Positions 46,134 through 53,746 of a stretch of DNA of 64,000 nucleotides are shown in pieces; the stretch's first letter is position 1; each line of letters starts with the position of its first letter. Made by a program: the position numbers and the translations under genes. The notes under the pieces were generated by a model. That model was given only the letters and a program-made list of their open reading frames with translations, was not told the origin of the DNA and ran no database searches. Source of the DNA: Opitutaceae bacterium EW11 (GTDB lineage Bacteria > Verrucomicrobiota > Verrucomicrobiia > Opitutales > Opitutaceae); assembly GCA_003054665.1 (NCBI GenBank), contig QAYY01000001.1, forward strand, positions 361,501 to 425,500. Direction: 5' to 3'.

Positions 46134-46892
46134 ATGGCAAGAATCATCGACCCAGCGCTCGACAAGGCGCGCGCCTATCTCGCATCACAAAACCTCCACA
46201 ACGAACTGCGGCCACGGGAACCCTCTGAAGGCCCCTACGTAACGATCTCGCGTGAGTCCGGCACCGGCGCTCCCGCCTTTGCGCAAGCCCTCGCGGCTCG
46301 CTTGGCGGCGGAGGATCCCGCCGGCCAGATCTGGTCCGTCTTCGGCTCCAACCTCATCGAAGCCGTACTTCAGGAACACCAACTGTCTCCGCGCCTCGCT
46401 GCGTTTCTCCCGGAGGGACGCGTGCCGGAATTGCGCGCTCTGATCGGCGAGATCGTCGGCTTGCACCCCAACCTCTGGGACCTTGTTCAAAAAACGAATC
46501 GCCTCATCCGGCAGTTGGCCGATCACGGTCGTGTGATCCTCATCGGCCGCGGAGCCGCGTTTGCCACAAAAGGCATTCGCAACGGCCTGCATCTTCGCCT
46601 GATCGCCCCCGACGATCACCGCACCCGGCACACCGCGCAACGGCTGGGGCTCAGCGATGAGGCCGCCGCTGCGCACAACCAAAAACTCGACGTGTCCCGC
46701 CGCAGCTACGTGAAGGCGAATTTCGACGCCGAGGGGCCGGATCCCAAGGCTTACGACCTCGTCATCAACGTCGCGGAGATTCCGCCGTCCGAAGCGGTCG
46801 AGATGGTCGTCCCGCTCATTCACGCTCGCACTCCCGCCCTGCGCTCCGCGCCGACGTCGGAAAACGTATCCGGGCTCGCTCAAGGTCTCTAA
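46134..46892 (+). CDS. Cytidylate-kinase-like P-loop protein
   Basis: A 252-residue protein of the cytidylate-kinase-like family (PF13189 type). YVTISRESGTGAPAFAQALA replaces the normal Walker A (no GKS/T lysine in the usual place), and ILIGRGAAFATKG and RTRHTAQRLGLSDEAA follow as in this family. True CMP kinase activity is uncertain. The stop codon TAA shares its first two bases with the duplicated TA of the MITE-like element at 46892-47159; without the element the codon would be TAG, so the protein is unchanged. Confidence 0.8.
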   Translation: MARIIDPALDKARAYLASQNLHNELRPREPSEGPYVTISRESGTGAPAFAQALAARLAAEDPAGQIWSVFGSNLIEAVLQEHQLSPRLAAFLPEGRVPELRALIGEIVGLHPNLWDLVQKTNRLIRQLADHGRVILIGRGAAFATKGIRNGLHLRLIAPDDHRTRHTAQRLGLSDEAAAAHNQKLDVSRRSYVKANFDAEGPDPKAYDLVINVAEIPPSEAVEMVVPLIHARTPALRSAPTSENVSGLAQGL

Positions 46893-47159
46893 GGCGTGTT
46901 TGCAAAATGGGAAGCAGAGCGTGGAGGAAAGAATCGAGGGGGGCCAGGCGGGCCGAAAAGAGGTGGGCCTGCGGCCCATGCTTTTCGGCACAACGCCGCC
47001 CGCCTCGATTCTTTTCCCACCCGAAGGGCTGGGGCGGAAGCGAGCACGGTGCGGCGTTGTGAACAAGGGGCAGGGCTGAAAGCCCAGCTCCCTTGTTCCC
47101 GCCTTGCACTCTGCTCGCTCCGCTCCCAGCGCTCCGTTTCCCATTCTGCAAACACGCCT
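46892..47159. mobile_element. 268-bp MITE-like element with 30-bp inverted ends and TA duplication
   Basis: The ends start AGGCGTGTTTGCA and match at 27 of 30 positions when inverted. TA occurs on both sides (46890-46891 and 47160-47161), as expected for an IS630/Tc1-type target duplication. The inside is highly folded: a nested hairpin (46928-46939 with 47003-47014; 46952-46960 with 46981-46989; 46964-46969 with 46973-46978), an 11-bp pair (46989-46999 with 47051-47061) and a second hairpin (47061-47069 with 47090-47098). No transposase frame is present. A structured non-coding RNA is the alternative. Confidence 0.78.
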
Positions 47160-47174
47160 TAGAACCGAACAGCG

Positions 47175-47257: not shown

Positions 47258-50200
47258 TCAGGGCGTCGCCAACTCGCCGTTGCCGTTGATCGTGAGCGAA
47301 TCGGCGGTGACGCAGCCACGGAGCAGCGAGCCGGAATTCAGCATCACGGCGCCAGCGGGCGCGACGACGTAGGCATCGAGCTCCGTGGAAGACCCGTTCA
47401 ACGTCAGTCCGCCCGAGGCGATCTTGAGGACGAGCCAATCCGGATGGGCGCTTTCGCCCGCCGACGCATTGAGGTTAAGACCGGATGCCACCGTAAGCAC
47501 GACTGGACCGACGACCTTTAGCTGGGAGCTCCCGTTGAGCGTGAGGTTCTGCAGGTTGTAGACCACGGGTTCGGTGCTGCCCTGGACGCCGAGAACAAAC
47601 CCGCTGCCTCCATTGGCGGTGAAGCTTCCGTACGCCCCCGGAGGCACGGCAAACATTCCGGCCTTCCCGTTCAGCGTCAGGTTGCGGAGAGTCGCGAAAT
47701 TGCCCGCGTCCTGACCGGCGGAATTGATCACGATGTCGCGCGTTCCGGAGGGAGCCGGAGGCGCCGCCACGGAAGGCATCGCGATGGGATCCACGCGGCG
47801 CAAGAGGTAACGCACCACGGCGCCGTTGTTCAGCGTCACGCTGTAGTTCGAAGGCGACGCGCCGCCAGCCCCGTCCTGAATTCCTGCATACACGGGCTTC
47901 CCGTTGATCCGAACCAGAGGCGATCCGGGAAGAAGCAGGTCACCCGAGACGGCGGCGTTGCTGTTGAGCGTCACGCTTTCGCCGAGCAGCTGCTGGAGCG
48001 AACCGTCGAGAATCCCGTTCACATTGGCGGCATGGCGGACGAGCGCGGTGATCAGGATGTTCAACGTGGCCGTCGCCGAACCGGTGTAGTTGGCTTCCTC
48101 CACCGTGGCGGCCACTGCATACGTCCCGGGAAGCGACGGCACGGGCGATTTCGCCCCATTGTAGGTGATGGCTACCGCTAGACCTCCGGGGGACGTGTTG
48201 ATCGAAACGGGCCGAGGCGTGCCGTTGTAGAACTGCGAGAGCCCGCCGATCGAAAGGACCGCCGTCGCTTTTCCGATCACCAGGGTACCCGCGGCGTTTC
48301 CGACGTAGTTCGGATCCGCAGAAGTCGCGACGACCGCGTAGCTGCCGGCATTCACCGGAGCAGTCGCGGCCCCGTCGTAAGTCACCTTCACCGAAACGCC
48401 CACCGGGTTGGTGGCGATACTCGCCGGTTTTGGTGTCCCATCGTAGACAGGGCTCAAGTTCCCAAGCGTGATCGCAACCGGCGCCGGTTTCACGTCGATG
48501 GCGGTGCTGGCGGAGGCGCCGGTGTAGTTGACGGAGTCCGACGGAGCGAAAACGGTCTTCAGAGACTGCGCGTTACCGGCATCCAGCACCACCCCGGCGG
48601 CGGGACTGTAGCTGAAACTGCCGCTGACACTCGCCGTTGCGTTGAGCTGCGCCGAACCAAGCGGGGTGCCGTAGACGATCGGCGCAGGAGCCGCCCAAAC
48701 AATTGTCGGGGTCGCCTGAACGATGGTGAACGTATCCTTCGCCGAACCGACGTAGTTGGGATCCGTGATCGTCGCCTCGACTGCGTACGAAGCGGCATTC
48801 ACGGGCGCGGCGGGCGAGCCGTCATACGTCAACGATACGGCAAGGCCCGCGGGAACAGTGGTCACCGTGGGACTCAGAGGCGATCCCGTGTAGATGCGGG
48901 AAAGATCCGACAGCGCAACGGAGGCAGGCACCGGCGCGACCGCCAAAGACGCGGCCTCGCTCGTGGCGGAAACCGGCAGGCTGTTCGGCGCGAGCGCGGA
49001 CGCCGCCACGTCGTAACCGTCGAGGAGATTCGAGACGGCCGCAGTGTAGCTTCCTGCATTGGTCACCCGCACGTTCGCAAGGGTCAGCGTTGGCGTCGTC
49101 GAGCCGGACACCACGGAGCCGTCGGGCTGCGTCCCGTCCGTGAGCGGGCTGCCGTTGAAGGCCCAGCGCACCGAAGGGGCGGTGTTGTTCGTCCCGCTCG
49201 CACCGGCGGTCGAGACGGCGAAACTCACCGTATCGCCCACCTTGGCCGAAGCAGCCTGGGGCTGCCCGGTAATGGCGAGAGCATTACACGTCACATAAGG
49301 CCCCACGCTGCCGGAGCCGAGAAACCGAATGTCGGTCGCATCATAGATCTCGAAACCAGCACCGCCCGAGATGGTGACGTTCTTCAGGGTGACGTTCTTG
49401 ATCAACGCGTCGGCCAGCGGCAGCCCCCAGATCACGCTGTAACCCGAGGCACCGGTGGCGGTGAGGTTTTCTATCGTGATGTTCTGCCAGGTCGGGATCG
49501 TCGACGACGCGAGGGAGTTCGGAGGCGTAGCGTTCCAGGTATTCACCTTGGCAGGTGTCGTGCGATTCGAGCCCGACGTGGCGCCCGCGGTACCGACCTG
49601 GTTGTAGTAACTGTAGAACAGAATCGGATACGGCACATTGGTCATCGTGATGTTCGAATAGGTCAGGTTTCTGACCGGACCTCCCTGTGTGGCGTCGGCC
49701 TTCAGTCGGAGGCCCGTCGTGGTGCCGTCGAACGTGCAGTTCTTCACCGTCATTCCGTCCACGCCTGCGTTGGTCTGCCCGCCGATCGAGACCCCGTGCC
49801 CCGTGCCGAACGCACAGTCGGCAACCACGATGTTGCTGTTGAGCACGCTCGAGGCCTTCACCGCGATATTGTCGTCACCGACCGAGACAGTGCAGTTCTG
49901 GATGAGGTAGTTGGACCCCGCCGGATCGATGCCGTCGCTGTTGGGCGCGGACTCGGGAGCAAGGATGGTCACCCCGAAGAGCGTCACGTTGTGGGTGTTG
50001 TTGAACGCCAGGTGAAACATCGGCGAGTTCTGCAGCGTGACACCGGTAACGAGAAAGTTCGTCGTCCGGTTGATCTGCACGAGGCGTGGCCGCGAGCTGA
50101 TATTGCCCGCGTCGTATGCCGCCCACCATGCCGCGCCGTTGCCGTCGATCGTGCCACCACCGCTGATGGCGACGTTGGAAGAGCCGCTGGCGACCGTGAT

Positions 50201-53200
50201 GAAGTGCGCCGGAGCCTTCGTCGCGTTCGGATAGCGGGAGAACGGCAACGCCTGGAGAACGGCGCCCGCGTCGATCTGCAGGTTCATGTTGCTCGAGAGC
50301 GTGATCGGGCCCGTGAGATAGGCCGCCGGCGCCGGAGGCAACTCGATCGTGCCGCCTCCGCCAGCCTGGGCGGCGGAAATTGCGGACTTGAGCGCCGCGG
50401 TGTTGTCCGTCGCCCCGTCGCCGACGGCGCCGAAATCCGCGGCGTTGAAGTGCTGCGCGGGAATCGACGGCAATGTCGGAACCGGCCCTGCTGGCGCGAC
50501 AACCGTCAGCATCGCAACGACGCTCGTGACCGGGCCGGAGGCTGCTCCGCCAGTGTTCGTAACGGTCACAGAATAGCCTCCCGCGTCGGACGCCTGCACG
50601 CTGCCCAACAGCAACGAAGGTCCGCTCGCACCGGGGATGGGAGATCCGTCTTTGCTCCACTGATACGTGAAGGGGCCCGAGCCGCCGACCGCGACGTTGA
50701 AGCTCGCCGTCGCGCCGGCGAGCGCCGACTGGCTCTTCGGCTGCAGGGTGATCACGGGCGGTCCGCCGTTGACGACCAGGGCCGCGGCGACGCTCGTCGC
50801 GGTTCCGACGCCGTTGTCCACCACCACGGTGTAGACGCCGGCGTCCGGTCCCGTTGCGGACGCGATGAAATACGTGGCGGCCGTGGCGCCCGGAATCGGG
50901 ATTCCGTCCCGGTTCCACTGGTACGTGGCCGAGGGAACGGCGACCACCCCGACCGTGAGCGACGCCGGATCGCCGAGATTCACCGACTGCGTGGCCGGCT
51001 GCGCAACGATGACGGGCGCAAGCTGCGGGGTCCAGTTGCCGCCGAGCACGTAGCTCGGCGTGCTGTAGTTCGCAATGGTCGCGGCGTCGTTGGCTATCGT
51101 CAGCTGCTTCGAGTCCGCGAGCCGCTGGCTGACATCGATCGGATTGCCGTTCGCGTCGTGGCTCGCGTACTCCCAGAAATGAATGTTCGGCGCGGACGTG
51201 GCGTTGTTCAGCAGCCAACCCGCGGGAACGATGTTACCGCCGACCGTGCAGTTGAGATAAACCACCTCGCTGTAGGGATAGGCGTTCGGGTCGATGCGGC
51301 TGAGATACTGCCCGGAGACGCCGGGAAGCGCGTCGATCACGCACTCCAGGTAAACGTTGCCGTGCGTGCTCGTCGTATTCGGGTTCCGGATCTGCGTGTA
51401 GTAACCGCCGTTGGCGTTGGCCGTGAGCCGGCAGCGGTAGAAGAAATTCGGGCCCTGACCCCACATGAAGTCGACGTTGCCCTGAAGGTGGGAGTCGCTG
51501 ACGTAGCCCTGGCCGTTGATCTGCAGGGTATCCTGGTAGCTGATCAACTCCACGCCCGTGACGATGGCCTGGCTCGAGGAAGAGCCGTTCAGGATCAACG
51601 CTTCGGCCTGCGAACCGCCGAGCGGCGTCGTGTTGCGGATCGTGAGATTCGCGATGGCGGTCTTGTTCGCATGATCGGCGTTGAAGACCATGCGGTGGTA
51701 CGCGCCGCCGGCGCTGTTCAGGTTGTTGTTGTTTGGATACTGGATCACCGTCTGGAACCGGTCTTCGCCGAGAAACGTGAGCGCCTGTTTCGACGCGAAG
51801 TAGACGATCTCGGTGTACGTTCCCTTGCGGATGAAGATCGTCCGGGGAACCGAGTTGGCAGCCGGCACCCAGTCGACGGCGCCCTGCACGGTGGCAAAGT
51901 CCCCCGTTCCGTCCGCCGCCACCGTCACACGGGTGACGCTGCTGTCCGGCGCCGACGGCTTTGTCGTGAACCGCCAGGCGGCAGGATCCGTGATCCCCGG
52001 GAAATCGCCCTGCGCGTCGCGAAACACGCCGGAGTCGACGGTGATGTAATACGTCTTGTTGTAGCCGAGGACACCGTTGCGGAAGTAGATGTCCGCGCGA
52101 TTCCCGGAAACGATCACCGGGTAGTAGTTGAAGTTGCTCAAGCCGCCGATGCTCTTGTTCTGCTTTGGCAGGCTGACGTCGATCGTGTCGACCGCGGTGT
52201 TCGTCGAGGCGTCGAAGACCTTGATCAACCCGCTGCCGAGCGAGGGCGGCGCGGTGAAAGTGATCGAGACAGGCGTATCGGCGCAGAGTGACGGGGACCC
52301 GCTTGCGGGCGAGACCGAGCCGAGCGCCAGCGTCGTGCTGAGGACCGTGAGCTTCGCCGCATTGCTGGGCACGGTGCCGCCGTCGTTCGTGATCTTCACG
52401 ACATAGCTGCCCGCGTCCGAAGGTTGCACCGCGTCAAAGGTGAGCGTCGGAGAGGTCTGCGCCTGCAGCGGCGAGCCGTCCTTGTACCACTGGTAGAGCA
52501 GCGCGTTTCCGGTCGCAGTCACGGAAAGCGTCACCGGACTTCCAAACGAGACCGTCTGGCCGGCCGGCTGAACCGTGATGACCGCCGGCGGATCGACGGG
52601 GACGTTGGAAACGGTGAGCACGATCGCGTCGCTGGTGATGCTTCCGCCGCCGTTGGCGACGACGAGCGTATAGCTGCCGCCGTCGCCCGGCTGCACGTTG
52701 GTGAGAGTGAGGCTTGGAGCGTTGGCTCCGGGGACCGCCGTGCCGTCTTTGTTCCATTGATACGCCAGCCCGGTGCCGGTCGCGGAGGCCGACATGATGA
52801 CCTGCGCGCCGATGCCCACGGTCTGCGTCGTGCCGCCGGTCGAGAACGTCGGCTGCGCGGTGAACACCGGCAGCGCCGGGGAGAGCTGCACGTTGACATC
52901 GGTGAACGTCACGCCCGTGGCGAAACTGACGCCCGCGATTCGGTAGACGAGCTGATCGAAGGCCGCGACCGGGGCGGTCGAATCCGTCGCCGTCCACGAG
53001 TACGGAGCCGCCAACGTCCCGCCCGAGACCGTCGCGGCGAGCACGGTGGCCGTATCGGATTGCCGATACACGGAGTACGTCAGCGTGTACGGGACGCCGC
53101 TGGAAAGCGTCTGGCGAGTCGTGGATCCCGAGCCGGCGAGAGCGTCGAACTCGGCCATGTTGTTGAACATGTTGTTCAGTCCGCCGATGCTCGCCGCAGT

Positions 53201-53746
53201 CGTGAGATTGCGTTTCCCCATGACAAACGGACTGCCCGTGCCCGACGGAAAGAACTGCAGGCTGTAGCCGACGTCGTCCGCAAACGTGGCGTCGTTGTGG
53301 CCGCCGGTGAGATTGTTGGTGTTGCGAGTGCCCATCGAGTTGAGCAGCCCGAAACGCACGTCCTGTCCGCCGCCGACGAGCCCGGTGATCGTGAACGTCA
53401 GGCTCACGGTGAGCGTGTCGCCGACGCCCAACGTCACGGGAGCGGTGTTGCTCCACGCGGTGCCGGGTGACGTTTGATTGCCGCTGAAGTACGCCCAGAA
53501 GGCCTGCGAGCTGGTGGCTGACGGCGTCATTCCGAACGCGACCGAGCCGGCCGAATCGGTGCGCGGATAATTCACGTTGCCGCTCGCACCGCCGCGCCCG
53601 TCGAAAAAGTTCAACGAGTTCTGCGCGAGGTTCTGATTGCGGCTGTTGCCGTCGGCGAACGTGTCGTGGACGACGGAGGTGCCGGCGAAAGCGACGGGCG
53701 AAAGGAAGCCAATCGCGAGAAGCGAAAGCCAGAGCTTCGATTTCAT
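47258..53746 (-). CDS. Giant secreted pectinase: pectinesterase (CE8) plus polygalacturonase (GH28) with Ig-like and MBG repeats
   Basis: A 2162-residue protein with a signal peptide (about 1-21). Order: a lectin-like N-terminal domain (25-285), two Ig-like domains (292-380, 385-470), an SbsA-type Ig_5 region (475-600), CE8 pectinesterase (605-890; GNVDFMWG with catalytic D759), two Ig-like domains (910-1080), GH28 (1100-1475; NSDGID, GDDNIAVK near 1292, GHGVSIGG near 1316, GLRLKA), another Ig-like domain (1489-1600), four MBG-type repeats with IYTG/VYDGTP starts (1609-1895), and a beta-rich C-terminus. Demethylation of pectin and cleavage of polygalacturonate would be done by one chain. No PEP-CTERM or sortase signal is seen. 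No Shine-Dalgarno sequence. Confidence 0.92.
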   Translation of the reverse strand: MKSKLWLSLLAIGFLSPVAFAGTSVVHDTFADGNSRNQNLAQNSLNFFDGRGGASGNVNYPRTDSAGSVAFGMTPSATSSQAFWAYFSGNQTSPGTAWSNTAPVTLGVGDTLTVSLTFTITGLVGGGQDVRFGLLNSMGTRNTNNLTGGHNDATFADDVGYSLQFFPSGTGSPFVMGKRNLTTAASIGGLNNMFNNMAEFDALAGSGSTTRQTLSSGVPYTLTYSVYRQSDTATVLAATVSGGTLAAPYSWTATDSTAPVAAFDQLVYRIAGVSFATGVTFTDVNVQLSPALPVFTAQPTFSTGGTTQTVGIGAQVIMSASATGTGLAYQWNKDGTAVPGANAPSLTLTNVQPGDGGSYTLVVANGGGSITSDAIVLTVSNVPVDPPAVITVQPAGQTVSFGSPVTLSVTATGNALLYQWYKDGSPLQAQTSPTLTFDAVQPSDAGSYVVKITNDGGTVPSNAAKLTVLSTTLALGSVSPASGSPSLCADTPVSITFTAPPSLGSGLIKVFDASTNTAVDTIDVSLPKQNKSIGGLSNFNYYPVIVSGNRADIYFRNGVLGYNKTYYITVDSGVFRDAQGDFPGITDPAAWRFTTKPSAPDSSVTRVTVAADGTGDFATVQGAVDWVPAANSVPRTIFIRKGTYTEIVYFASKQALTFLGEDRFQTVIQYPNNNNLNSAGGAYHRMVFNADHANKTAIANLTIRNTTPLGGSQAEALILNGSSSSQAIVTGVELISYQDTLQINGQGYVSDSHLQGNVDFMWGQGPNFFYRCRLTANANGGYYTQIRNPNTTSTHGNVYLECVIDALPGVSGQYLSRIDPNAYPYSEVVYLNCTVGGNIVPAGWLLNNATSAPNIHFWEYASHDANGNPIDVSQRLADSKQLTIANDAATIANYSTPSYVLGGNWTPQLAPVIVAQPATQSVNLGDPASLTVGVVAVPSATYQWNRDGIPIPGATAATYFIASATGPDAGVYTVVVDNGVGTATSVAAALVVNGGPPVITLQPKSQSALAGATASFNVAVGGSGPFTYQWSKDGSPIPGASGPSLLLGSVQASDAGGYSVTVTNTGGAASGPVTSVVAMLTVVAPAGPVPTLPSIPAQHFNAADFGAVGDGATDNTAALKSAISAAQAGGGGTIELPPAPAAYLTGPITLSSNMNLQIDAGAVLQALPFSRYPNATKAPAHFITVASGSSNVAISGGGTIDGNGAAWWAAYDAGNISSRPRLVQINRTTNFLVTGVTLQNSPMFHLAFNNTHNVTLFGVTILAPESAPNSDGIDPAGSNYLIQNCTVSVGDDNIAVKASSVLNSNIVVADCAFGTGHGVSIGGQTNAGVDGMTVKNCTFDGTTTGLRLKADATQGGPVRNLTYSNITMTNVPYPILFYSYYNQVGTAGATSGSNRTTPAKVNTWNATPPNSLASSTIPTWQNITIENLTATGASGYSVIWGLPLADALIKNVTLKNVTISGGAGFEIYDATDIRFLGSGSVGPYVTCNALAITGQPQAASAKVGDTVSFAVSTAGASGTNNTAPSVRWAFNGSPLTDGTQPDGSVVSGSTTPTLTLANVRVTNAGSYTAAVSNLLDGYDVAASALAPNSLPVSATSEAASLAVAPVPASVALSDLSRIYTGSPLSPTVTTVPAGLAVSLTYDGSPAAPVNAASYAVEATITDPNYVGSAKDTFTIVQATPTIVWAAPAPIVYGTPLGSAQLNATASVSGSFSYSPAAGVVLDAGNAQSLKTVFAPSDSVNYTGASASTAIDVKPAPVAITLGNLSPVYDGTPKPASIATNPVGVSVKVTYDGAATAPVNAGSYAVVATSADPNYVGNAAGTLVIGKATAVLSIGGLSQFYNGTPRPVSINTSPGGLAVAITYNGAKSPVPSLPGTYAVAATVEEANYTGSATATLNILITALVRHAANVNGILDGSLQQLLGESVTLNSNAAVSGDLLLPGSPLVRINGKPVYAGIQDGAGGASPSNYSVTLNNGAVVRYLLRRVDPIAMPSVAAPPAPSGTRDIVINSAGQDAGNFATLRNLTLNGKAGMFAVPPGAYGSFTANGGSGFVLGVQGSTEPVVYNLQNLTLNGSSQLKVVGPVVLTVASGLNLNASAGESAHPDWLVLKIASGGLTLNGSSTELDAYVVAPAGAVMLNSGSLLRGCVTADSLTINGNGELATP

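Follow-up and report, generated by a model that had tools for sequence, protein, structure and literature searches.

Small palindromic elements comparable to the studied element

ERIC/IRU, Correia/NEMIS and RUP sequences are small palindromic mobile sequences with TA flanks, often located near gene ends. As generally described, they resemble the element studied here in their small size, palindromic structure and TA flanks; to our knowledge, there is no report of their hairpins having the core motif described below. MITEPsy1 of Pseudomonas syringae is 100 nt long; its 18-nt ends start with GGAAGGTCTGAAAAAGCC, it duplicates 4 nt, and its authors ascribed it to IS5 with a question mark, its target being CTAG or YTAA (PMC3189936). 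REPs are palindromes of 20-40 bp with a GTAG or CGTC foot (PMC3733652). Insertion sequences of the IS5 family prefer the target Py-T-A-Pu (YTAR), of which CTAG is the commonest form (PMC5493358).

The window, a 64,000-nt stretch of the genome of Opitutaceae bacterium EW11, contains a MITE-like element of 268 bp (46892..47159) between the 3' ends of two convergent genes. Like MITEPsy1, the element is short and geneless, and has inverted ends and a similar insertion context. It differs from MITEPsy1 in its length of 268 bp, its ends, the duplication of TA and the presence of two conserved hairpin cores. Its terminal 18 bp are identical to those of a transposase-bearing element of a relative (G181), which belongs to the DUF4096 IS5-family insertion sequences (NCBIfam transpos_IS5_3). 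Unlike the window element, those insertion sequences carry a transposase, and in G181 also passenger genes, and no match to the hairpin core was found within them in the scanned stretches. With REP/REPIN sequences the element has in common that the palindromes are repeated, extragenic and often arranged as inverted pairs. However, the core is 75 nt long, has other conserved bases than the GTAG or CGTC foot and is enclosed by long inverted ends with TA duplicated outside them, and membership in the REP/REPIN group was rejected for this reason. The element is probably a non-autonomous element (MITE) whose movement would depend on an IS5-family DDE transposase acting in trans, and it carries two inverted, conserved, bulged hairpins.

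The element and its insertion site

One copy of TA stands on either side of the element. The left copy (46890..46891) forms the first two bases of the stop codon of the host gene, and the right copy occupies 47160..47161. The left terminal inverted repeat, AGGCGTGTTTGCAAAATGGGAAGCAGAGCG (46892..46921, + strand), has the family consensus start GGGCG, and the right one lies at 47130..47159 (- strand). With the flanking TCTA/TAGA included, the inverted ends extend over 34 nt with 91% complementarity. They enclose a 75-nt bulged hairpin in two copies, arranged head to head. Core 1 (46934..47008, + strand; alignment A1), with the loop motif CAGGCG...CAACGC, matches model R2 at 79.8 bits (E 1.6e-20), the model having been built partly from this very sequence. 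Core 2 carries the same motif on the opposite strand (47042..47116; 70.6 bits, E 7.6e-18 with model R2). Since the two inner hairpins are one motif on opposite strands, comparison of the element with its reverse complement gives about 69% identity. The + strand of the element folds at -202 kcal/mol, compared with -116 +/- 5.5 for shuffled sequences (z = -15.7), which is far from chance. The open reading frames within it, in both directions, are short and incidental only, and none is a transposase gene.

The host gene (46134..46892, + strand) encodes a cytidylate kinase-like protein of 252 aa (Cytidylate_kin2, PF13189, E 3e-21). The convergent gene (47258..53746, - strand) encodes a protein of 2162 aa with pectinesterase, GH28 and Ig domains, and ends about 97 bp beyond the element. 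Removal of the element and one TA restores CTC-TAG-AAC and leaves the last residue of the kinase unchanged. The kinase reading frame now terminates in TAA (46890-46892). This TAA results from an A as the outermost base of the window element, a position at which the other copies carry G. The window copy departs from the copy consensus at two positions only, 3G>A and 270C>T, which form a pair with one another. Nine relatives of the kinase terminate at positions equivalent to query residues 235-256, so the kinase stop looks native. Truncation of the kinase by the element was rejected, as the empty site already reads TAG and the nine relatives end equivalently.

A preliminary description, made from the window sequence, had proposed a 268-bp element with inverted ends and TA flanks, inserted into a pre-existing stop codon and converting TAG to TAA without altering the protein. 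The boundaries, end complementarity and fold agree with the first part of this proposal, and the reconstructed empty site, the ends of the kinase relatives and the present end of the reading frame agree with the rest. The interior, which had been described as nested perfect hairpins, has to be redrawn: the inner hairpins are imperfect, with small bulges, and these bulges are the most conserved part of the element.

Copies and mobility

Six full copies, including that of the window, exist in the window genome (G000); they are 97-100% identical and occupy unrelated sites, and most copies have TA flanks. Partial forms are also found in this genome, namely a half copy, an inner fragment, a 155-bp form with one hairpin and 57-bp forms consisting of the ends alone. 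Three of the 57-bp forms have one common junction, GGGAAGCAGAGCGTTTCCC, which indicates that they either move as such or that an identical deletion recurs. In G020, a relative from another genus, there are three two-hairpin copies and two single-hairpin copies, and the inner part of the two-hairpin copies is 68% identical to the window element. The element is a MITE, being short and without a transposase gene, with inverted ends, a short target duplication and dispersed near-identical copies, and it has moved in the past. The mobile nature supposed at the outset is thus confirmed by near-identical copies at unrelated sites, and the suggested search of the genome and its relatives did yield further copies. 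A structure conserved in place across distant species, which would have pointed to a fixed RNA structure, was not what was found: the structure occurs in distant species as part of mobile elements, and a fixed RNA structure at the kinase locus was rejected because the copies occupy unrelated sites.

Additionally, two kinds of related sequences were observed. A further 57-bp element of the window genome (L057, 1501-1557; C11:305773) has related ends and another inner stem, AAAAGCGCTGGGCAGTGCCCAGCGCT, and is also located at a stop codon. Elements with TAGGGCGTGTTTGCAAAA-type ends and a different inside, built on a TGTCATCCTGAGC...GAAGGATC repeat, occur at L083, in G104 (L133-L136) and in G163 (L137).

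A probable mobilising transposase

Of 150 sampled genomes of the family, 8 contain ends matching TAGGGCGTGTYT; controls gave no match in any of these 8. In G181 (C20:34899-38667), the ends TAGGGCGTGTTTGCAAAA and TTTTGCAAACACTCCCTA lie about 3.7-3.8 kb apart, and a gene for a 261-aa IS5-family transposase (NF033580, E 3.5e-69, with additional matches to PF13340 and PF01609) ends just inside the second (right) end, TTTTGCAAACACTCCCTA. Similar IS5-family genes are present near matching ends 4.6 kb apart in G105 and near one matching end in G164, and an IS5 fragment follows one such end in G020. A PF13340 search for a DUF4096-type transposase gave no match in the window genome, where the element has probably been orphaned. 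Four bases are duplicated by IS5 itself; at the insertion sites of the element only TA is duplicated. As judged from the shared ends, the element appears to be an IS5-linked MITE, of the IS5 family rather than of IS630/Tc1. The IS5-family transposase would recognise ends of the form TA-GGGCGTGTTTGCAAAA and insert the element at TA, usually in a Y-TA-R context, with one TA left on each side. The lack of a DUF4096-type match in the window genome and the duplication of TA only count against this reading, and so do the quite different ends of several elements with the same hairpin, for which no transposase has been identified. As a separate observation, the 3.8-kb element of G181 (L085, L095) carries passenger sequence that, by eye, seemingly encodes TIR-domain and TPR-like proteins.

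Target choice and stop codons

Empty sites were rebuilt for 20 copies of G000 and G020, with genes called by a codon score trained on these sequences, which is a simple caller and not a curated annotation. Most of the rebuilt sites read CTAG, CTAA or TTAG; TTAC is one of the exceptions. Of the 20 copies, 8 sit exactly at a stop codon, including one that occupies the stops of two convergent genes simultaneously; no copy falls within a called gene. In the window, stops account for 13 of the 37 non-coding YTAR sites and 6 of the 12 non-coding CTAG sites, and 36 of all 73 YTAR sites are coding. Against this null, the number of copies at stops is as expected (p = 0.65 for YTAR and 0.50 for CTAG), and the complete absence from genes departs from expectation (p ~1e-6). 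The share of stop codons equals that of non-coding YTAR or CTAG sites; target preference together with purifying selection therefore explains the landings, and special targeting of stop codons is unneeded. The landing in the window is one case of this general, selection-filtered pattern.

The element normally starts with G, so that an in-frame TA is rebuilt as TAG. When the target is a TAG or TAA stop, the protein therefore stays the same and the insertion survives selection. Stop-codon landing can thus be regarded as a simple, countable rule for the harmless spread of mobile DNA, consisting of a target that overlaps TAR stops and an end that rebuilds the stop.

Conservation of the hairpin core

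In an alignment of cores from G000, G020 and G151, the last of which belongs to the same family as the window genome, 20 of the 30 pairs have changed on both sides. The covariation is 0.53, compared with 0.17 in shuffled alignments, and is lost when the pairing partner is slid. Over 72 matches the covariation is 0.62 versus 0.17 shuffled, in an alignment that was fitted to the model and leans towards structure. In the same 72 matches the loop bases [AC]AGGCG and CAAC are at least 97% invariant, with the exception of the A/C position. According to a first model, built from the first 17 sequences, the core is present in 19 of the 289 genomes searched in the phylum; these represent 14 of 152 genera, and many occurrences in a single genome are frequent. 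A search of the window and 19 related loci against Rfam, at curated and relaxed thresholds, gave sub-threshold matches only, mostly to miRNA families, and nothing on MITEs in Opitutaceae or on the hairpin motif was found in the open-licence literature. In G374, at least 14 cores of identical score are present in one genome (L202-L205).

The head-to-head layout of two cores, roughly 270-285 bp in length, is found in G000, G020, G367, G111 and G079. The ends around the core differ, including TAGGGYGTGTYT, CTAGGCGCTNTCTTCAAA, ATACCACTTCGAAAAAATTCTGGCGT, ATACCAAATTTAAGAAGG, AGAGAGTGTTCAACAAGTCAGAATATG and AGGGCATTTCGATTAATC; they have either been swapped or drifted past recognition.

Other phyla were scanned with a gapped pattern over named genomes, followed by the first model, and the E-values are flattered by this preselection; a second model was trained partly on the cross-phylum sequences preselected in this way. 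Among the matches listed, those in Verrucomicrobia and Opitutaceae records are strong, and those in Pseudomonas isolates, Planctomycetota MAGs and others are weaker. Many of the cross-phylum matches are multi-copy and have their own long ends and TA, such as CTAGTGTCCTGTCTCGGAAATA in Pseudomonas. At least 3 copies exist in each of two Pseudomonas, at least 10 in a Planctomycetota MAG and at least 28 in a Gemmatimonadota MAG; the Myxococcota case and one of those in Planctomycetota are each represented by a single copy in a MAG. The core is probably common to Pseudomonas, Gemmatimonadota, Planctomycetota and Myxococcota. A plasmid search with the Pseudomonas element gave no match. When the Pseudomonas, Planctomycetota and Gemmatimonadota ends were used in a pattern search for an autonomous partner, many ends were returned, the close pairs being spaced like a short element, and no transposase was identified.

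Alternative explanations and the role of the core

Three other accounts of the element were weighed. The preliminary description had looked to an IS630/Tc1 transposase, and a MITE of that type, with a TA target, TA duplication and an IS630 transposase as mover, would suit a palindromic element of which most copies duplicate TA, as several IS630-linked MITEs are palindromic with TA duplication. We nevertheless consider this origin very improbable. The transposase found between the same ends in a relative belongs to the IS5 family; in a non-exhaustive search, no IS630-type transposase was found between the same ends. Moreover, the target context, mostly CTAG, CTAA or TTAG, is typical of IS5-like elements (PMC5493358). 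The hairpins had also been put forward as a possible terminator or stabiliser of the host mRNA, in which case the element would be kept at the stop for its function, and not placed there by target choice. The very stable fold speaks for such a function, as does the clustering at gene 3' ends, where single-core copies occupy 15 convergent and 4 divergent settings (p = 0.02). On the other side, no T-run follows the element or its outer stem, and intrinsic terminator matches stand at the level of shuffled sequence (one versus 0.7 expected). The share of stop codons is also what non-coding YTAR or CTAG sites give. Of the single-core copies between co-directional genes, 6 are oriented sense and 15 antisense (p = 0.08), a distribution that lends no support to action in the sense transcript. 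A function in host mRNA is accordingly judged unlikely, though less so than an IS630 origin.

The remaining account concerns the conserved hairpin, which could be a by-product if template switching re-perfects the palindromes, the stems covary as a result and the shared loops are ancestral leftovers. Template-switch correction can produce covarying palindrome stems without selection, and 2 of the 6 full copies have mirror-paired double substitutions at their extreme ends, as this process would give: 3G>A/270C>T in the window copy, and a change of TA..TA to CA..TG in L005 (1498-1770). These pairs suggest that one arm has been copied from the other in these palindromes. However, template switching should also erase the bulges, and the bulge bases are near-invariant in 72 sequences in which the stems change freely. 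We therefore regard an origin as a by-product as rather doubtful, although the least improbable of the three. Under the preferred reading of an IS5-linked MITE, the role of the two inverted copies of the hairpin, common to MITEs with other ends, would lie in the element itself and not in host mRNA: folded as single-stranded DNA, or as an RNA of the element, they would be recognised by a host or transposition factor.

The usual view of a bacterial MITE is that of two ends with filler between them. In the present elements it is this interior that is best conserved, its loops being invariant and its stems covarying, and it is the ends that vary, which suggests an unrecognised function. It can be proposed, tentatively and at somewhat less than even probability, that the 75-nt bulged hairpin is an autonomous structured module common to MITEs with unrelated ends across several phyla, and that it has been retained because its loops are read, in single-stranded DNA or RNA, by a widely conserved factor. 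If true, bacterial MITEs would possess a hidden cis-acting part distinct from the inverted ends required by the transposase.

The model of the core also provides a way of finding such elements. Among the genomes with many repeats, the Gemmatimonadota MAG.277 (G447) has 88 matched ends on many contigs, the close pairs being mostly spaced as a 167-bp element. The repeat is often located at contig ends in this assembly, and seems to break it.
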